NCBI RefSeq assembly: GCF_947331465.1
Contig: NZ_CAMZOK010000001.1
Coordinates: 1,116,001 to 1,180,000 of the forward strand
Source: Shimia sp. Alg240-R146
GTDB taxonomy: Bacteria > Pseudomonadota > Alphaproteobacteria > Rhodobacterales > Rhodobacteraceae
Direction of reading: 5' to 3'
Length of the DNA: 64,000 nt
Position 1 is the first letter of the stretch. Each line of letters begins with the position of its first letter. Positions 29,434 to 42,469 of the stretch are shown piece after piece. Position numbers and translations under genes: made by a program. The notes beneath the pieces were generated by a model. It saw nothing but the letters and a program-made list of their open reading frames with translations. It was not told where the DNA came from and searched no databases.

Positions 29434-29760
29434 TTACTTCATGAAGTTCAAATAAGCTTCACGTTCGATGTTGTAGGCCAACTCCAGTTTGGTGATCTCT
29501 GCCATCAGGGACTCTTTCGCCTTGGGGTCGATTTCTCGTGAGAGACGACTGCGGGCGGCTTCGATTTGCTCTTTGAGCGGAGCTGGTGATTTGGGCACAC
29601 CGATGCCAGCCTTAATAGTTTGGCTGACCGACGCGCCGCCGCCTGGGATTACATATGTCCTCCGCAACGGTTTGCCCGCGCCGGAGAGGTTATTAAGCTG
29701 ACCCTCAGCTTGCGCTTTGAGGATCTGCCGTTCGATGAGTGCGTTCATGGAGTTTGTCAT
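29434..29760 (-). CDS. DUF1992 (DnaJ-associated) protein, copy 1
   Basis: 108 residues. The N-terminus ALIERQILKAQAEGQLNNLS and the Gly-rich GAGKPL box are the DUF1992 signature, and the C-terminus (ELAYNIEREAYLNFMK) is a conserved helix. DUF1992 is also found at the C-terminus of DnaJ-like proteins such as E. coli YdjE/DJC28 homologues; molecular function is unknown. The middle part (RRTYVIPGGGASVSQTIKAG) differs from copy 2 at 30229-30555, although the ends are well conserved. Both copies are 108 residues on the same strand, 468 bp apart, a likely old tandem duplication. Confidence 0.9.
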   Translation of the reverse strand: MTNSMNALIERQILKAQAEGQLNNLSGAGKPLRRTYVIPGGGASVSQTIKAGIGVPKSPAPLKEQIEAARSRLSREIDPKAKESLMAEITKLELAYNIEREAYLNFMK

Positions 29761-30228: not shown

Positions 30229-30555
30229 TTACTTCAAAAAATTCCTGTATGCTTCGCGCTCGACATTGTATTCCAATTCTAGCAGCGAAACCTTCGTCAT
30301 CAGCGCCTTTTTCTCGGCAGGATCAGATGTTTTCTTAAGCTCCTCGCGGGCTTTATCCAAACGTTCCTTGAGGGTGAATTGCCGCGGCTTTACGCCTGCG
30401 CTGGCCATCATTGCATGGCCAACCGATGCCACAGATGTCTGTAACCCCGAATGCTTGTCGAGTGGTTTTCCCGCGCCGGACAGATTGTCCAGCTTTCCTT
30501 GAAGCTGGGCTTGCCGGATCTGGCGTTCGATGAGTGCGTCAAAAGAAGGTGCCAT
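30229..30555 (-). CDS. DUF1992 (DnaJ-associated) protein, copy 2
   Basis: 108 residues, paralogue of the copy at 29434-29760. It shares the ALIERQIRQAQLQGKLDNLS start, the GAGKPL box, a KKALMTKVSLLELEYN segment and the EREAYRNFLK end. The middle (LDKHSGLQTSVASVGHAMMA) is unrelated to that of copy 1. A duplicated ATGATATGGTATGGC-type stretch lies around its start codon. It ends 38 bp... upstream is valS on the same strand, whose stop is at 30597, so read-through from valS is possible. Confidence 0.9.
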   Translation of the reverse strand: MAPSFDALIERQIRQAQLQGKLDNLSGAGKPLDKHSGLQTSVASVGHAMMASAGVKPRQFTLKERLDKAREELKKTSDPAEKKALMTKVSLLELEYNVEREAYRNFLK

Positions 30556-34433: not shown

Positions 34434-34801
34434 CGGAGCCACGTGAACCGACATGGGTCCGCTATTACTCTTGGCAGCTGCGATCCATGGAAGAGCTGAC
34501 AAAAGCGACGCGGGCAGATTGGCGGCAAGCTGCAGCGGATGGGGCTGTGGTGTGTTTTTGGGCCCTTGCCCTTATTGTGGCGATGGTCTTGTTGATCTGG
34601 GGCTGGGACGTGGGGCCAAACGGGTCACGGACGGAGCCGCTGTCGGGGTGGTGGTCCATTCTGGGTGGCGGTCTTGCAGTGATGGGGCTGTCAGGGTTGG
34701 CGTTGTGGCGCTACGGGCGTTTGGCGAGCGCGCGGTATGAGCGGCGACAAGAATTGAGGGCCGTGAAAACACGCGGCAAAGCCAAGAAAAAAGCAGGCTG
34801 A
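34430..34801 (+). CDS. Small membrane protein coupled to the DUF3592 gene
   Basis: 123 residues. An amphipathic start (TWVRYYSWQLRSMEELTKAT) precedes TM1 (GAVVCFWALALIVAMVLLIW), a short loop, TM2 (WWSILGGGLAVMGLSGLALW) and a long basic tail ending KTRGKAKKKAG, which should face the cytoplasm. The 4-bp overlap with the DUF3592 gene implies joint synthesis and probably interaction. I do not recognise a named family. Confidence 0.75.
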   Translation: MTEPREPTWVRYYSWQLRSMEELTKATRADWRQAAADGAVVCFWALALIVAMVLLIWGWDVGPNGSRTEPLSGWWSILGGGLAVMGLSGLALWRYGRLASARYERRQELRAVKTRGKAKKKAG

Positions 34802-34845
34802 CATTTGGTCGTTCGCTTTAACCGCCTGCGGCGTCAGATGCCGCG

Positions 34846-35484
34846 TCAGGCGCGGGAAGCGGCAACTTTTGCGTCCGTAAGCGGGGCGCGGACGCCGGTC
34901 TGGATCACTGTTGGATCATAAGCCTGCCGGTCAAAGACCTCTCGTACCATGGGGGCAAAGAATTCGATGGGCTTGGTGACATAGTCTGGGTCGAAACTGG
35001 CCTGATCCCAACGTTCACAGAAGGTTTCGTTGTCGTCGAAATAGGGATGGCCGCGGTGGCGTTCGCGTTTGTTTTGGTCAAAGCCGTCAAGGTGTTGGCC
35101 GTAGTAGACCATTTGGAAATCGCCGTGGGTTTGCACAACCCAAGTGCATTGCTCGCGCACAAAGGGTTTCAGAATGGTGGCGGCGTATTCGTCGTGATTG
35201 TAAGGCGCATAGATGTCGCCGATGTCGTGCAGCAACGCCGCGACCACCCAGTCGATGTCGGCACCGTCATTCCACGCTCGGGTGGCGGATTGCAACGAAT
35301 GGCCCAAGCGGGTGATCTGGTATCCCGACAGGCTTTCATCCAGCTCCACCAGCGCCTTGAGCAGGCGGTCAGCAGTGTGCCGCGTGTGGTCGATTTCCAG
35401 CGCGTTGAGGAATTCGTATTCGTCTTTGGTGCCGTCTTTCATCTGTGTGAAGTCGACGCGGTCCATTTTTGGCGTGTCCGTCAT
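34846..35484 (-). CDS. HD-domain protein with PhnZ-like mixed-valent diiron oxygenase ligand set
   Basis: 212 residues. A standard HD phosphohydrolase reading is possible, but the metal ligands match the oxygenase PhnZ: His62 (LGHSLQ), His86-Asp87 (LLHDIGD), His97, His120 (QTHGDF) and Asp160 (RWDQASFD). The 24-residue spacing between the first two is the same as PhnZ (34 to 58). PhnZ uses O2 to split the C-P bond of a 1-hydroxyphosphonate. The PhnZ lid residues (Tyr24 and Glu27) are not matched at the aligned places (Leu52, Tyr55), so the substrate may differ. It starts in a 4-bp overlap with the PhyH gene upstream. Confidence 0.85.
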   Translation of the reverse strand: MTDTPKMDRVDFTQMKDGTKDEYEFLNALEIDHTRHTADRLLKALVELDESLSGYQITRLGHSLQSATRAWNDGADIDWVVAALLHDIGDIYAPYNHDEYAATILKPFVREQCTWVVQTHGDFQMVYYGQHLDGFDQNKRERHRGHPYFDDNETFCERWDQASFDPDYVTKPIEFFAPMVREVFDRQAYDPTVIQTGVRAPLTDAKVAASRA

Positions 35485-36338
35485 CCGTAGAGCCCTTTTT
35501 TGTCTTTGCTGCCTTTCATCAGGGAGGCTGCCTGAGCTTTCCTGATTTCCTCGTAGAGGTCCAGTGTGGCCGGCGCAAAAAGGTCTTTGGGCGGCGCGAG
35601 GTGAATGAAGTTGCCGATGCGATCCACGCCGCGCACCAGCATGGCGTAGTCTTTGTCCGCCACTTCCTGCGCGATTTCGGGTTTGATGTAGCGGATGACA
35701 AAGCCGATGCGGCGGTCGTCAGACTGATTTGGACCGGAGCCATGTATCGTCAGGCCGTGGTGCAGGGACATCTGTCCTGCCTGCAGTTCAATGGCGGTTT
35801 TGTCTTCGGGGGCGATATCCACAACGACTTCTTGACCGCGCGATAGCAAGTTGTCCTCGCCGTGGGTGTCGGTATGCGGCAGGATCGGGTTCTTGTGGCT
35901 GGCATGCACAAAATCCATGCAGCCGGAGGCAACAGTGGCAGGCGAAAGAGCGATCCATGCTGTGACCAGACCGTCCACGGCATCAAGCCCCCAATAGGTC
36001 AGATCCTGATGCATCGAAACGAAGGATTTGGTGTTGGGTTCCTTGATGAAGAACTCGGCGCTCCAGACCAGAATATTGGGGCCCAGCACACCCTCGACAA
36101 TGTCCAAAACGCGTGGATCAGCGGCAAGGCGGGCGGCCATGGGCATGACCACGTAGGAATTCACGCGCTTGTAGCTGTTGATCGGCAAGGGCAGGCCGGC
36201 ATCGAGCCAGTCGCGTTCGATGGTTTCGATTTCGGCACGCCAGCGGGCGGCCTCGTCAGACGACATGATGTCCAGGGGGTAAAGGTAGCCATCTTCCCAA
36301 TATTGGGATTGCTGTGCTGCAGATAGAGTGGCGGGCAT
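35481..36338 (-). CDS. Phytanoyl-CoA dioxygenase (PhyH) family 2-oxoglutarate oxygenase, PhnY-like
   Basis: 285 residues. Fe(II) ligands: His110-x-Asp112 in SMHQDLTYWG and His199 in LTIHGSGPN, followed eleven residues later by Arg210 for 2-oxoglutarate, the PhyH spacing. This family hydroxylates small substrates; PhnY hydroxylates 2-aminoethylphosphonate at C1 for PhnZ. The pairing with a PhnZ-like enzyme in a 4-bp overlapping operon mirrors PhnY-PhnZ. No phosphonate transporter or C-P lyase gene is near. A divergent LysR gene shares the 105-bp upstream region and probably controls the pair. Confidence 0.88.
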   Translation of the reverse strand: MPATLSAAQQSQYWEDGYLYPLDIMSSDEAARWRAEIETIERDWLDAGLPLPINSYKRVNSYVVMPMAARLAADPRVLDIVEGVLGPNILVWSAEFFIKEPNTKSFVSMHQDLTYWGLDAVDGLVTAWIALSPATVASGCMDFVHASHKNPILPHTDTHGEDNLLSRGQEVVVDIAPEDKTAIELQAGQMSLHHGLTIHGSGPNQSDDRRIGFVIRYIKPEIAQEVADKDYAMLVRGVDRIGNFIHLAPPKDLFAPATLDLYEEIRKAQAASLMKGSKDKKGLYG

Positions 36339-36443
36339 GGGCGTGGTCCTGAGTGATTGACAAGTTGGAGCCTATGGCAATGGCGCGGGATTGCAGCATG
36401 ATGGTTCTGGACGGACAGGCTAAGTTTTACTTATGCTCGCGTC

Positions 36444-37334
36444 ATGAAGAGCCGTATCCCATCGCTGAACTGGCTGCGCGTTTTTGAGGCCGCTGCACGG
36501 ACCGAGAGTTTCGCGCGGGCGGCGGAGCAGTTGCACATGTCGCCCGCTGCCGTGAGCCAACAGGTCAAAAGCCTTGAGGAGCGGTTGGGTGCGCCGTTGT
36601 TTGTGCGCAAGGCCCATGCGGTGACGTTGACAGAGGCAGGACGTGCCTATTTAGCGCCGGTCCAGCAATCGTTGATGACGCTGGAGGAAGCCACCGAAGG
36701 CTTGTTTGGCCGCACACGGGAGCAGGCGCTGTATCTCAATTGCGTGTTGATTTTCGCGCACGGGATTTTGGCGCAGGGTCTGTCAGAGTTCGAGATAGAC
36801 AATCCGGGGCTGTCAGTGGTGATGAACACCGGAAATTCGGCGGTGGATTTTCATCAGGGGTTCGTTGATCTGAAGATCATCTTTGGCAATCCACATGCCT
36901 ACGGCGCGGAAAGCGACCGGATTATGGGGGAATGGCTTTATCCGGTGGCGATGCCGGATGTCGCGGCACAGATCACCCAGCCTGCGGATCTCTTGGATTG
37001 GCCGCTGATTGAGGTTGGCACCCATCGCAGCGGTTGGCGGCAGGTGCTGGAAGAGGTCAAGGTCATGCCTGGTGCTGCGCGGATGGTGTTTGCTGACAGC
37101 ACGGTGATGGCGATGGCGATGGCGCGGGCAGGACGGGGCATTGCGTTAGCGCGTGCGCCTGCCAGCGATGCCGAAATGGAAGGCGCAGGACTGGTGCCGT
37201 GCCTTGCGGGGCTGCGAGTTCGGGGCAGTCAGGCCTATCATCTGGTTTACGACGATCTGCGGGCATTGCGCCCGCCGGCGCGCAAATTTCGCGACTGGTT
37301 GTTGGCATGGGGTGCCGCGCAAGGTTGGGATTAG
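36444..37334 (+). CDS. LysR-family transcriptional regulator (GcvA-like)
   Basis: 296 residues. The N-terminal winged helix (RVFEAAARTESFARAAEQLH, then MSPAAVSQQVKSLEERLG) is typical of the GcvA/AmpR branch, and the effector-binding domain follows. It is divergent from the PhyH/HD operon with a shared 105-bp intergenic space, the classical layout for a LysR protein regulating its neighbour. The likely inducer is the substrate or product of the oxygenase pair. This is inference from position. Confidence 0.92.
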   Translation: MKSRIPSLNWLRVFEAAARTESFARAAEQLHMSPAAVSQQVKSLEERLGAPLFVRKAHAVTLTEAGRAYLAPVQQSLMTLEEATEGLFGRTREQALYLNCVLIFAHGILAQGLSEFEIDNPGLSVVMNTGNSAVDFHQGFVDLKIIFGNPHAYGAESDRIMGEWLYPVAMPDVAAQITQPADLLDWPLIEVGTHRSGWRQVLEEVKVMPGAARMVFADSTVMAMAMARAGRGIALARAPASDAEMEGAGLVPCLAGLRVRGSQAYHLVYDDLRALRPPARKFRDWLLAWGAAQGWD

Positions 37335-37373: not shown

Positions 37374-37811
37374 TCAGGCGCGGAGACGGTCCAATCGCGT
37401 GGAGAGGTGGATCAGGCTTTCCGAGCTTTTGACGCCCTGCGCTTCGCCGATGCGGTCCAGGGTGTCGTCCAGTTCCGAGGTGCTGTCAGCGGCCAATTGC
37501 ACAATCAGATCCACGCGGCCTGAGCAGGTATGGACGGTTTCCACCGCCGGCAACGATTTCAGCTTTTGCAGCACTGCGGGCCCCGCACGCAACTCGATCG
37601 ACAAAAGCGCTGTGGCGCGGATGCGGGGACGGGCGACGTCACCCAATCGTAACGTGTAGGCGGCAATCGCGCCCGTGTTTTCCAATCGGTCCAGGCGGGC
37701 CTGCACAGTGGTGCGCGCGAGGTTGAGTTTGCGCGCCAAAGTGGCCACGGGCGCGCGGGCGTTCTCTGACAGCAGCGAGAGCAGTTTTTGGTCTGTTTCG
37801 TCAAGTTGCAT
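37374..37811 (-). CDS. Lrp/AsnC family regulator
   Basis: 145 residues. DETDQKLLSLLSENARAPVA and the HTH LARKLNLARTTVQARLDRLE form the DNA-binding domain; the RAM domain contains SLPAVETVHTCSGRVDLIVQ. It is divergent from the decarboxylase gene at 37917 across a 105-bp gap, so it is the probable regulator of that gene, responding to ornithine, lysine or arginine. It also converges on the LysR gene end (40 bp). Confidence 0.92.
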   Translation of the reverse strand: MQLDETDQKLLSLLSENARAPVATLARKLNLARTTVQARLDRLENTGAIAAYTLRLGDVARPRIRATALLSIELRAGPAVLQKLKSLPAVETVHTCSGRVDLIVQLAADSTSELDDTLDRIGEAQGVKSSESLIHLSTRLDRLRA

Positions 37812-37916: not shown

Positions 37917-39047
37917 ATGCGCAATCAACCGGCTTTGTGGCCGTCACCGAACTGGCATTTGCCAAAGTTTAAACCGGACGCGCCGGTTTTGTATTTTGCA
38001 CCCGAAGTGTTGCAGGCCACGGCGAAACGATTTCTGGATGGGTTTGACGGTCTGGTCACCTATGCGGTTAAGGCCAACGATCACGAAGCGGTTCTGCACA
38101 ATCTGGTGAACGCCGGCATTGCTGCGTTTGACGTGGCCTCACCAATGGAAATGGCGCGGGTACGGCGGGCGAAGGCGGATGCGGTGCTGCATTATCATAA
38201 CCCTGTCCGGTCACGGGCGGAGATTGCCGAAGCGGTGGGGCATGGCATTGCCAGTTGGTCGGTGGATTGCGCGAGCGAGTTGGCAAAGTTGGCCGATGTG
38301 CCGCGTCACGACACCGAGATTGCGGTGCGGCTGCGGTTGCCCGTGGCGGGAGCCGCCTATGATTTTGGCGAGAAATTTGGTGCCGATCCGGCGGCGGCGG
38401 TTGGGCTTTTGCAGGCGGCGCATAACATGGGGTTTGCGACGTCGATCACATTTCATCCCGGCACCCAGTGTGCCGACCCGGAGGCCTGGGCGGTTTATGT
38501 CGGTGTCGCTGCGGATGTGGCGCGACAAGCCGGCGTGCGGCTGAAGCGGTTGAACGTCGGCGGCGGGTTTGCAGCGCATCGCAGCGGTGCAGCGCCTGAT
38601 ATTGAAGCGGTTTTTCAGCGTATCACCGAGGAGGTGCAGACGGTTTTTGACAAAGACGCACCCGGTCTGGTCTGTGAACCGGGGCGCGCGATGGTTGCAG
38701 AGGCCTTTACGCTGGCGTTGCGGGTGAAAGCGGTCAGAGGCGGGGCGGTGTTTCTGAATGACGGCGCCTATGGGGCGTTGACCGAGTTGCGCGATATCGG
38801 CCTGCCGGATCGGGTGCAGGTGTTGCGATCAGACGGGGCAAATGTCGATGGAGACCTGGTGCCGTATGTGGTGTTCGGGCCGACGTGTGACAGCCTTGAC
38901 CGGTTGCCGGATTTGATGCCTTTGCCGACAGAGATCTCGGAAGAAGACTATGTTTTGATCCGCGCAATGGGGGCCTATTCCGCGTCGATTTCCACAGGTT
39001 TCAACGGCTATGGCAGGCAAGAGATTGTAACTGTCGCAACGTTGTGA
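37917..39047 (+). CDS. Fold-type III PLP decarboxylase (ornithine/lysine decarboxylase-like)
   Basis: 376 residues from ATG 37917 (GAGG upstream); earlier in-frame codons overlap the Lrp promoter. PLP Lys is in VTYAVKANDH, followed by the FDVASPMEMARV sheet. The Gly-rich phosphate loop is LNVGGGFAAH, with EPGRAMVAEA and the C-terminal Cys region VFGPTCDSLDRL completing the ODC fold. Such enzymes remove CO2 from ornithine, lysine or diaminopimelate; the length and the CDS/D motif favour a polyamine-type ODC. Divergent from its probable Lrp regulator. Confidence 0.9.
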   Translation: MRNQPALWPSPNWHLPKFKPDAPVLYFAPEVLQATAKRFLDGFDGLVTYAVKANDHEAVLHNLVNAGIAAFDVASPMEMARVRRAKADAVLHYHNPVRSRAEIAEAVGHGIASWSVDCASELAKLADVPRHDTEIAVRLRLPVAGAAYDFGEKFGADPAAAVGLLQAAHNMGFATSITFHPGTQCADPEAWAVYVGVAADVARQAGVRLKRLNVGGGFAAHRSGAAPDIEAVFQRITEEVQTVFDKDAPGLVCEPGRAMVAEAFTLALRVKAVRGGAVFLNDGAYGALTELRDIGLPDRVQVLRSDGANVDGDLVPYVVFGPTCDSLDRLPDLMPLPTEISEEDYVLIRAMGAYSASISTGFNGYGRQEIVTVATL

Positions 39048-39120: not shown

Positions 39121-41421
39121 ATGGAAAAATTCGGGAAAAGCCAACCGGTCAAACGGTTCGAAGACACACGGTTCCTGACCGGTGCGGGGCAATATGTGGA
39201 TGACATTGCGCCGGAGGGGGCTTTGCACGCGTATTTCCTGCGTTCGCCAGTGGCGCATGCAGAGATTACAGAGCTCGATGTAAGCGACGCGCGCGAAGCA
39301 GACGGTGTGGCTGTGGTGCTGACGCAAGAAGACTTGCTGGCGGCCGGTATGGACGCAACGCTGGAGGGCACACAGGTGCAAAACCGCGATGGGTCCAAAG
39401 GGGCAGGGCCTGCGCGGCCTTTGCTGGCGACGGGGCGTGTGCGTTATGTTGGTGAGCCGTTGGCGGTGATTGTGGCCGAGACTATGGATCAGGCGCGCGA
39501 TGCGGCCGAGATGATCATGTTTGACTACGACGATCTGGACGCCCACATCGCGCTGTCGCGCGGAGGTGCGCCTTTGCACGCAGAAGCGCCGGAAAACCTC
39601 GCATTCGATTGGGGTTTGGGCGATGAGGCCGCAACTGAGGCCGCGTTTCAGGCGGCCACACATGTGGTCAGCCTTGAAGTGGGCGACAACCGCGTGATCG
39701 TCAACGCAATGGAGCCGCGCGGCGCCTTTGCCGAATGGGGCGAGGACGGCCGTGTGCACGTGGCGATCAACGGTCAGGGTGTTTGGGGGCCGAAAGCGCA
39801 GATCGCGCGTATGCTGGCGATTGATCCCGAACAGGTGAAAGTCACCAACCCCGACACGGGTGGCGGCTTTGGCATGAAAGCGATGATGTACAACGAGCCT
39901 GGCGTGATTGCTCAGGCGGCCAAGGTTATCGGAAAGCCGGTGCGCTGGATTGCGGACCGTACGGAATCGATGTTGTCGGACAACGCGGGACGGGATCTGA
40001 CCTCGACCGTGGAAATGGCGTTTGATGAAACCCTCAAAGCCACGGCCTATCGCGTGCTGAGCGTCGCCAATATGGGCGCTTATAACTCGCAATTCGCGCA
40101 GGCCATTCAAACACAGCTGTTCAGCCGTGTTTTGATGGGCGTGTACGATGTGCAGACCACATGGTTGCAGGTGGACGGGGTTTATACCAACTCGACGCCC
40201 GTGGATGCCTATCGCGGTGCGGGGCGCCCCGAGGCGATTTACGCGCTGGAACGTCTGATGGACCGCGCGGCGCGGGAATTGGGCGTGTCGGGCTCCGAGC
40301 TGCGACGACGCAATTTCATTCCTAAGGCGGCGTTCCCGTATAAAACCACAACGGATGAGACCTATGACGTGGGTGATTTTGATCGGGTGCTGGATCGTGC
40401 TGAGGCGTTTGCCGATCTGAGTGGGTTCGGCGCACGCAAGGCGGCGTCTGAGGCGGCGGGCAAGCTGCGCGGCGTCGGGTTGTGTTATTACATCGAAAGT
40501 ATTCTGGGCGATCCGAGCGAAAGCGCACGGGTGGAATTCAACGAGGATGGCACCGCGTCGATTTTTGTGGGTACGCAGTCCAACGGGCAGGGCCACGAGA
40601 CGGTTTATGCGCAGTTTTTGAGCGATCAGACCGGCATTCCGGTGGATTTGATTGAGGTTGTGCAGGGCGACAGTGACCGCATCAAACAAGGTGGCGGCAC
40701 TGGCGGATCACGCTCTGTCACCGTGCAGAACACCGCGACACTGGCGACAGTGTCCACGATGATCACCGCTTTCACACAATATCTCGCGGATAAGATGGGT
40801 GTGAATGAGGCTGACGTTTCTTTTGATGACGAACAGTTCCGCGCCGAGGGGTCTAACCTGCACCCGACGATGCTTGAGGCCGCTGAAATGGCGCGGGCGG
40901 ACGGGCGCGAAGATTTGTTGGTGCATGAAGAACGCACAACGCTTCCGGCGCGCAGTTTCCCCAACGGGGCGCATTTTGCAGAGATAGAAATTGATCCCGA
41001 GACTGGTCAGGTCACGATGGATCGTTACAACGTCGTGGATGATTTCGGCAACCTTATTAATCCGATGCTTGCCGAGGGTCAGGTGCATGGCGGGGTCGCG
41101 CAGGGCGCAGGTCAGGCCTTGATGGAGCATGTGGTGTTTGATGAGGACGGTCAGTTGTTGACCGCAACCTTTATGGATTACGCGATGCCACGCGCCAGCG
41201 ATATGCCGATGATCGGCTTTACCACCGAGGCCGTGCCGTCGACAGCGAACATCATGGGCATGAAAGGCTGTGGCGAAGCGGGCACCGTGGGGGCAATGGC
41301 GGCCGTGGCCAACGCCGTGCAGGACGCGCTGTGGGATCGCGGAGTGCGTCAGGCTGACATGCCGTTTACCCCGCTGCGGGTCTGGGAAATGCTGCGCGAA
41401 GCCGCGCCTGATGCTGCATAA
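39121..41421 (+). CDS. Form II CoxL-like molybdenum hydroxylase large subunit (xanthine dehydrogenase family)
   Basis: 766 residues from ATG 39121 (GGAGAG upstream). Moco-binding domains match the CoxL/XdhB family: the VDAYRGAGRPEAIY loop is the form II signature (form I CO dehydrogenases have AYXCSFR), and the active Glu lies in GMKGCGEAGTVGA. The usual partners, an FAD subunit (CoxM) and a [2Fe-2S] subunit (CoxS), are absent on either side, so this is an orphan large subunit here. Likely substrates are purines, aldehydes or N-heterocycles; CO is unlikely. Its 3' end overlaps the DUF2235 gene by 11 bp. Confidence 0.92.
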   Translation: MEKFGKSQPVKRFEDTRFLTGAGQYVDDIAPEGALHAYFLRSPVAHAEITELDVSDAREADGVAVVLTQEDLLAAGMDATLEGTQVQNRDGSKGAGPARPLLATGRVRYVGEPLAVIVAETMDQARDAAEMIMFDYDDLDAHIALSRGGAPLHAEAPENLAFDWGLGDEAATEAAFQAATHVVSLEVGDNRVIVNAMEPRGAFAEWGEDGRVHVAINGQGVWGPKAQIARMLAIDPEQVKVTNPDTGGGFGMKAMMYNEPGVIAQAAKVIGKPVRWIADRTESMLSDNAGRDLTSTVEMAFDETLKATAYRVLSVANMGAYNSQFAQAIQTQLFSRVLMGVYDVQTTWLQVDGVYTNSTPVDAYRGAGRPEAIYALERLMDRAARELGVSGSELRRRNFIPKAAFPYKTTTDETYDVGDFDRVLDRAEAFADLSGFGARKAASEAAGKLRGVGLCYYIESILGDPSESARVEFNEDGTASIFVGTQSNGQGHETVYAQFLSDQTGIPVDLIEVVQGDSDRIKQGGGTGGSRSVTVQNTATLATVSTMITAFTQYLADKMGVNEADVSFDDEQFRAEGSNLHPTMLEAAEMARADGREDLLVHEERTTLPARSFPNGAHFAEIEIDPETGQVTMDRYNVVDDFGNLINPMLAEGQVHGGVAQGAGQALMEHVVFDEDGQLLTATFMDYAMPRASDMPMIGFTTEAVPSTANIMGMKGCGEAGTVGAMAAVANAVQDALWDRGVRQADMPFTPLRVWEMLREAAPDAA

Positions 41422-42469
41422 ACGCCTGTGGGATTGGCTGCGCGGGGGCACTCGCGCAGACCATTCCAAAGTCACCGCGCGTCGCGGGGCGGTCACCCAT
41501 ATCCTTATTCTGGACGGCACTTTGTCGAGCTTGCGCACTGGTGAGGAAACCAACGCTGGGCTGACCTATCGCATTTTGCAAAAGATGGGGCCCGAAGTAT
41601 CGCTGTATTATGAGGCGGGGGTACAATGGCCCGGCTGGCGGCAGACGCTGGACGTGATGATGGGGCGTGGGATCAACCGGCAAATCCGGCGGGCTTATGG
41701 CTATCTGGCGAGCCGCTATCGTCCCGGTGATCGCATATTCCTGATGGGATATTCGCGGGGCGCTTTTGCCGTTCGGTCGTTGGCAGGTGTGATTGACCGC
41801 GTCGGGTTGTTGCGGGCGGAATGCGCGACAGAGCGCAACATCCGCACCGCGTATCGCCACTATGAATTGACGCCGGACAGCGACGTGGTTGGTACCTTTG
41901 CCGAGGCGCATTGCCATGAAAACGTTGCGATTGAGATGATCGGTGTCTGGGACACGGTCAAGGCGCTGGGCGCGCGATTGCCGCTTTTGTGGCGGCTTAC
42001 GGAGAAGCGGCACGCGTTTCACAACCACCACCTGAGCCCCGTCGTGCGCCATGGATTTCAGGCGCTGGCGCTGGACGAAACGCGGTCAGTGTTCGCGCCG
42101 GAGATGTGGGAATGCCCCGACATGTGGGACGGGCGGGTGGAACAGGTCTGGTTTCGCGGCGCGCATGGCGACGTGGGCGGGCAGCTTCACGGGTTTGCGG
42201 CGGCACGTCCCTTGGGGAATATCTCGCTTGTCTGGATGCTGGAGCGGCTGGAAAGCTGTGATGTGGCTTTGCCTGTCGGGTGGCAGGAGCGGATCGTGTG
42301 CGACGCAGAAGTGCCAATGTTGGGCACCTGGCGGCGTTGGGGTAAGTTTTTCTGGATCCGTAAACGCCGGATTGCCGGACGGGATCGCAGCGAAAGTTTA
42401 CATGAAAGTGCGAAACCCTTTGTGGCGGCGGGCGATGTAAAAGCGCGGGTTGTGGGCGACTTGCGCTAA
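41411..42469 (+). CDS. DUF2235 (alpha/beta-hydrolase-type) protein
   Basis: 352 residues from ATG 41411, inside the end of the CoxL-like gene. It contains the DUF2235 nucleophile elbow IFLMGYSRGAFAVRSLAG, the LILDGTLSS strand near the N-terminus and later His residues (KRHAFHNHHL and RGAHGDVGGQ) for the Ser-Asp-His triad. DUF2235 proteins include type VI phospholipase effectors and intracellular hydrolases; there is no T6SS gene here, so an effector role has no support. Coupled start with the CoxL-like gene is odd for an unrelated enzyme and may mean shared expression. Confidence 0.85.
   Translation: MLHKRLWDWLRGGTRADHSKVTARRGAVTHILILDGTLSSLRTGEETNAGLTYRILQKMGPEVSLYYEAGVQWPGWRQTLDVMMGRGINRQIRRAYGYLASRYRPGDRIFLMGYSRGAFAVRSLAGVIDRVGLLRAECATERNIRTAYRHYELTPDSDVVGTFAEAHCHENVAIEMIGVWDTVKALGARLPLLWRLTEKRHAFHNHHLSPVVRHGFQALALDETRSVFAPEMWECPDMWDGRVEQVWFRGAHGDVGGQLHGFAAARPLGNISLVWMLERLESCDVALPVGWQERIVCDAEVPMLGTWRRWGKFFWIRKRRIAGRDRSESLHESAKPFVAAGDVKARVVGDLR

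Follow-up and report, generated by a model that had tools for sequence, protein, structure and literature searches.

The excerpted text of a 2020 review names three HD-domain oxygenases, MIOX, PhnZ and TmpB, which act on inositol and phosphonates, and it sets MIOX apart from PhnZ and TmpB, both of which work in tandem with a hydroxylase. The same source describes YxxE as the substrate-binding loop motif of PhnZ and TmpB and states that some HD hydrolases are dinuclear (PMC8177086). Excerpts of a second paper, from which the PhnZ ligand numbering was taken, show that PhnZ His62, located after the HD-x-G motif, contacts the substrate hydroxyl (PMC7916636).

In a window of 64,000 nucleotides, the whole stretch of DNA analyzed here, a sequence-only reading had pointed to a PhyH oxygenase and a PhnZ-like HD protein encoded next to a divergent LysR gene. 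The HD gene (34846..35484, minus strand) encodes a 212-aa HD-domain protein that was designated a putative mixed-valent diiron oxygenase on the basis of its Pfam HD domain, profile, fold and ligands. The second gene (35481..36338, minus strand) encodes a 285-aa PhyH-family Fe(II)/2-oxoglutarate oxygenase, a putative hydroxylase upstream of the HD step, and the two genes share 4 bp in an ATGA stop/start overlap (35481..35484, minus strand). A divergent intergenic region of 105 bp (36339..36443), the presumed promoter/operator, lies between this pair and a GcvA-like LysR gene (36444..37334, plus strand; 296 aa), the presumed regulator of the pair. The open reading frames, strands and lengths, including the overlap and the divergent gap, were confirmed as they had first been read. 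Pfam domains at the locus were HD (25 bits, cut-off 22), PhyH (PF05721, 95.7 bits, cut-off 22) and LysR. Scans of the divergent region for inverted repeats and promoters gave nothing useful, and the scan of positions 34500-36700 contained no match to the sigma-70 consensus. The best NCBIfam name of the LysR protein was GcvA-like (211 bits, below the cut-off of 288) and was uninformative.

Elsewhere in the window, a pyridoxal-dependent ornithine/diaminopimelate decarboxylase-like gene (37959-39047, plus strand) adjoins an Lrp/AsnC gene (37374-37811, minus strand). In several relatives the two genes occur together close to HD, and homologues of a gene matching the Tle1-like phospholipase catalytic domain (41411-42469, plus strand; PF09994, 202.5 bits) are likewise recurrent there. 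Near valS, two 108-aa genes with similar starts are present (29434-29760 and 30229-30555, minus strand), one of which matches DJC28_CD (DnaJC28 conserved domain), the other having no Pfam match at 1e-8.

To compare the locus with its relatives, genes were called with our own codon-usage caller at 170 loci, of which 154 had an HD gene; removal of 4 identical proteins left 150 distinct HD loci, a convenience set drawn from the best matches, the fractions of which are not population frequencies. Nine of the 16 loci without a called HD gene had been fetched for PhyH (L163-L167, L170-L172 and L220), and at the other seven (L113, L120, L149, L151, L168, L221 and L224) the HD match was missed by the caller or broken. 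The short loci L001-L030 were left out, and the 80 genome-contig loci were the best 80 of at least 578. An HD tree was built from 149 rows after removal of X and stop signs. Genome-level counts were performed on 248 genomes of the window's taxonomic family with tests that ignore kinship; the HD count excluded two fragments in G224 and four weak rows (1e-4; G210, G245, G090 and G054) that lie on genuine TmpB genes.

The sequence-only reading had listed a full set of PhnZ-type diiron ligands in the HD protein, and alignment confirmed all six in order: His62, His86-Asp87, His97, His120 and Asp160. The first ligand spacing is 24 residues in both the HD protein and PhnZ. All six ligands align with TmpB and the first three also with PhnZ; TmpB has longer stretches ahead of the third His and of the last Asp. 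Among the 150 distinct homologues H86, D87, H97, H120 and D160 were invariant, and H62 was present in 149. Because some HD hydrolases are also dinuclear, these six ligands alone do not separate oxygenases from dinuclear HD hydrolases. The HD protein could accordingly be such a hydrolase (a phosphoesterase or other), with PhyH as a side oxidation enzyme of the same regulon, and a plasmid relative (41%) is indeed annotated as a phosphohydrolase.

Profile and fold searches separate the two enzyme kinds better than the ligand set does. A profile of 18 HD homologues searched against the PDB matched PhnZ (1.3e-10) and TmpB (4e-9), the sole further match at E <= 1 being Cas10 (0.027). The AlphaFold model of the HD protein had a pLDDT of 93, and all 10 of its Foldseek matches with E <= 1e-3 were PhnZ or TmpB chains, with moderate TM-scores (query length) of 0.52-0.60. 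Beyond these, E was 0.09 for MIOX, 0.15 for the first non-oxygenase and 0.39 for the PgpH phosphodiesterase. The structure prediction that had been suggested as a check thus placed the HD fold nearest to PhnZ and TmpB, and the alignment removed none of the six diiron ligands. The predicted fold is closer to PhnZ, TmpB and MIOX than to HD hydrolases. These matches, together with partner 2-oxoglutarate oxygenases that come from two families, speak against the hydrolase, which we regard as unlikely, and the HD protein is likely to be an oxygenase. Its best NCBIfam names were Phn-HD (34 bits, cut-off 214.6), the TmpB equivalog NF049941 (32.5 bits, cut-off of 300 not reached) and PhnZ1, all far below cut-off, and it is a separate family inside the oxygenase branch, distinct from TmpB.

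The residues around the substrate differ from those of the phosphonate enzymes. As had been pointed out before, the PhnZ lid residues Tyr24 and Glu27 are unmatched, and the HD protein has Leu52 and Tyr55 at those positions of the YxxE loop, which is therefore absent; Leu52 was found in 124 and Tyr55 in 136 of the 150 homologues. The TmpB glutamate near the amino group of the substrate corresponds to Tyr55. The substrate-contacting His after HD-x-G is also absent, position 90 being Asp where PhnZ has His62, and this Asp was present in 148/150 homologues. All 150 homologues have Gln124 at the place of the TmpB lysine after the fourth His. In the alignments, the PhnZ residues for the amino group and the hydroxyl are replaced by other conserved residues in this HD family.

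These replacements bear on a phosphonate pathway, in which PhyH would hydroxylate an amino- or trimethylamino-alkylphosphonate and the HD protein would release phosphate, as in PhnY/PhnZ and TmpA/TmpB. PhnZ and TmpB are the closest folds and profiles, and Phn-HD and TmpB are the best NCBIfam matches, though far below cut-off; against this pathway stand the exchanges of PhnZ Tyr24/Glu27/His62 for Leu52/Tyr55/Asp90 and of the TmpB lysine for Gln124.

The co-occurrence of genes was analyzed for the same question. The HD gene was detected in 85 of the 248 family genomes (86 matches) and is also found in rhizobia. No association with phnJ was observed (40/85 HD genomes vs 78/163 genomes without HD, odds ratio 0.97, p 1.0); in the window's genome phnJ is located at C1:777781, ∼337 kb before the window. 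Genuine TmpB did show a positive co-occurrence (24/85 vs 8/163, odds ratio 7.6, p 1e-6, kinship ignored), which favors the phosphonate pathway, but genuine TmpB (over its cut-off in 32/248 genomes) is a separate gene that coexists with this HD gene in 24 genomes, and both occur in the congener G210. No TmpB match at E <= 1e-10 was found in the window's genome. Carnitine or choline neighbors at part of the loci also argue against a phosphonate. The linkage to phosphonates, tested by phnJ co-occurrence and by residues, was thus unsupported, and we consider this reading quite unlikely. The organophosphonate put forward by the sequence-only reading, the wording of which left room with 'or related', found no support, and its suggestion that the substrate may be new is supported in that the substrate would differ from those of PhnZ and TmpB.

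The PhyH protein contains the H-x-D...H facial triad and an arginine. His110, Asp112, His199 and Arg210, to which the sequence-only reading had assigned these roles, were invariant in 12 homologues, and Arg210 is the presumed 2-oxoglutarate-binding residue. Halogenases are not known to have an acid at the position of Asp112, and this residue argues for a PhyH hydroxylase; a halogenase, suggested by the best NCBIfam name (chlorin-enz, 61.2 of 226.3 bits), was ruled out on this ground.

PhyH was immediately upstream of HD in 43 of the 150 distinct loci. The 4-bp overlap was called at 21 of these 43, and at 15 a LysR homologue (at least 40%) was present on the opposite strand, at most two genes away. 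A PhyH of the window's subfamily (at least 240 bits) was encoded in 41 of the 248 family genomes, 40 of which carry HD (Fisher 3.5e-21, kinship ignored); the sole exception, G139, consists of ∼470 contigs and has a partial PhyH match. In 35 of the PhyH genomes the gene was linked upstream of HD on the same strand, in 34 of these with no more than 54 bp separating the match ends, and none of the 21 weaker PhyH matches (100-240 bits) adjoined HD. The window's genome has a single HD gene, paired with PhyH, and two further PhyH genes elsewhere. On the HD tree (149 rows) PhyH linkage changes 25 times, 17 of which are forced by well-supported branches, and none of the six HD matches at 42-47% identity has an adjacent PhyH. 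The PhyH-HD pairing is not due to chance, and this linkage supports, together with profile and fold, the proposed two-step logic of a 2-oxoglutarate hydroxylase followed by a PhnZ-like HD diiron oxygenase. A PhyH of the window's subfamily was lacking in 45 HD genomes, so the HD step should also be supplied with substrate by a route other than PhyH.

At seven loci (L056, L067, L094, L100, L105, L119 and L217) HD was followed directly by an FA_hydroxylase/sterol desaturase homologue; two of these loci, L094 and L100 from Roseovarius, also have PhyH. The homologue is a possible third enzyme of the PhyH-HD module.

A different association was found with carnitine catabolism. Carnitine 3-dehydrogenase (E <= 1e-80) was present in 83/85 HD genomes vs 99/163 genomes without HD (odds ratio 27, Fisher 8.5e-12, kinship ignored), and the two HD genomes that lacked it were 74% complete (G033) or consisted of ∼870 contigs (G102). 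Urease, used as a control, was present in 64/85 HD genomes vs 129/163 others (odds ratio 0.8, p 0.52). At 28 of the 150 distinct loci, from Mesorhizobium, Tabrizicola, Hoeflea and other genera, HD was found inside a carnitine operon, with BKACE directly upstream in 27 and carnitine 3-dehydrogenase directly downstream in 24. The representative locus L115 has the order GbdR-like AraC gene (below cut-off), BKACE, HD, carnitine 3-dehydrogenase, acyl-CoA dehydrogenase, CoA ligase and crotonobetainyl-CoA hydratase-like gene (below cut-off). The carnitine 3-dehydrogenases of L115 and L159 scored 595.5 and 744.6 bits (cut-off 592), and those at the other carnitine loci were assigned by similarity to these two. 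The HD proteins of these operons are 65-71% identical to the window's HD protein and belong to the same well-supported tree branch. PhyH and carnitine genes were found together among the examined neighbors at none of the 150 loci.

Other loci contained choline genes. On a Pseudomonas plasmid, HD (51% identity) is preceded by a TauD/TfdA dioxygenase with TmpA (347.5 bits, cut-off 400) and gamma-butyrobetaine dioxygenase (266 bits, cut-off 414.75) as best NCBIfam names, and it is followed by a choline-binding protein, choline dehydrogenase and an aldehyde dehydrogenase that is nearest to BADH but below cut-off. A second TauD-HD pair is present at locus L225. Homologues of choline genes lie close to HD on a rhizobial plasmid, and MttB is present at two loci that have a second HD copy. 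An amidohydrolase gene was found at five loci, two of these with MttB and one with choline-gene homologues; among them, a Rieske ferredoxin was tested in L132.

The carnitine locus of the window's genome is on another contig and has no HD gene; it comprises a BKACE homologue, a dehydrogenase of long, thioesterase-fused length and an SDR-like gene (assigned by eye). Between BKACE and the carnitine dehydrogenase there is a gap of ∼470 bases (L264, 8434-8899), where HD sits in other genomes, and tblastn detected no HD relic in it. HD was co-located with carnitine genes at 28/150 family loci, but not in the window's own genome. A gamma-butyrobetaine dioxygenase gave no match at 1e-10 elsewhere in this genome; no control genome matched either, and its absence is not firm.

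The substrate could also be a non-betaine solute or amino acid derivative of marine bacteria, for example of the DMSP, proline or ectoine type, in which case the carnitine linkage would reflect a later recruitment of HD. PhyH has an NCBIfam match to ectoine hydroxylase, at 26.7 bits far below the cut-off of 336.5, and proline hydroxylases were among the matches in its fold search. The carnitine linkage is restricted to a small number of HD-tree branches (2 changes), 63 of the 150 loci had none of the sought neighbors, and a class II aldolase neighbor was present at 3 of the 150; all of this is consistent with a non-betaine substrate. The carnitine 3-dehydrogenase in 83/85 HD genomes and the TmpA-like partner beside choline genes argue against it, and we hold it to be somewhat unlikely. 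Class II aldolase/adducin genes were also observed beside or near distant HD homologues (40-42% identity; L222, L237, L242 and L219), which perhaps have a different function.

We favor, with a rough probability of 0.5, the reading that PhyH and HD together make up a catabolic module that degrades a quaternary-ammonium compound of the betaine type in two O2-dependent steps; gamma-butyrobetaine/carnitine or a close analogue is the most likely candidate. Taken separately, a betaine is the probable substrate, and its assignment to the carnitine type is tentative. In the order of steps that we infer, PhyH would hydroxylate the betaine near CH2-N(CH3)3 using Fe(II) and 2-oxoglutarate. The HD protein, acting like PhnZ, TmpB and MIOX as a mixed-valent diiron oxygenase, would then remove the carbinol C-H and, in a four-electron oxidation, cleave the C-C bond next to it; MIOX shows that the HD diiron cofactor is capable of such cleavage. 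Glycine betaine (or an analogue) would be released together with a small acid, and for L-carnitine we propose glycine betaine and glycolate as the balanced products. The chemistry would resemble that of TmpA/TmpB with a carbon leaving group instead of the phosphonate. The HD step would be the constant part: where PhyH is missing the hydroxylated compound would come from elsewhere, as in the carnitine operon, and in other bacteria a TmpA-like enzyme would be the partner. LysR presumably senses the substrate.

A complete route to glycine betaine is already present in the carnitine operon, which speaks against this reading; the HD step there may act on a stereoisomer or a side product, or be of use in an O2-rich niche. 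More speculatively, this new family of HD mixed-valent diiron oxygenases might provide a second, O2-dependent carnitine/betaine route in which a beta-hydroxy betaine is oxidatively split at a C-C bond to give glycine betaine directly; the hydroxylases that feed it would be interchangeable (PhyH, TmpA-like and perhaps a membrane FA_hydroxylase). The locus is real and non-random and represents a new family of a known enzyme kind with a probable new substrate class. This class would stand beside inositol and phosphonates for HD oxygenases, the hydroxylase-plus-HD logic would be modular, and there would be a testable route from carnitine-type compounds to glycine betaine in marine and soil bacteria. 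Current annotations of such genes as inositol oxygenase family or phosphohydrolase need caution.

Compared with known systems, the L-carnitine degradation operon (carnitine 3-dehydrogenase, BKACE and betainyl-CoA thioesterase) houses members of the HD family. PMC5806209 and PMC12482172 describe how such enzymes convert carnitine to glycine betaine; an HD step was not noticed in the excerpts of the former, taken without a search for HD, the term 'hd domain' occurs 0 times in those of the latter, and among the titles and abstract starts listed by searches of an open library none concerned an HD gene in carnitine catabolism. MIOX is likewise an HD diiron oxygenase, and its reaction breaks a C-C bond; a plasmid relative of the HD protein is annotated as inositol oxygenase family. 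The match of the window's HD protein to MIOX is weak both in Pfam (PF05153, 21.7 bits, below the gathering score of 25) and in fold (Foldseek E 0.09). PhnY/PhnZ, which acts on 2-aminoethylphosphonate, shares the two-step logic, the fold, the ligands and the first ligand spacing with the window's pair and differs in substrate residues and loops, and the window's HD family has no association with phnJ. The TmpA/TmpB pair of the 2-trimethylaminoethylphosphonate pathway of Leisingera caerulea differs in that the window's hydroxylase is a PhyH and not a TauD/TfdA protein and that the HD family has carnitine and choline contexts. The window's HD protein also scores far below the TmpB cut-off, with replacements of the YxxE loop, of the lysine and of the His that follows HD-x-G, and with shorter stretches between the ligands. 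Both systems nevertheless combine a 2-oxoglutarate hydroxylase with an HD diiron oxygenase that has six common ligands, one relative of the window's HD family has a TmpA-like partner, and the two perhaps share a trimethylammonium-type substrate.
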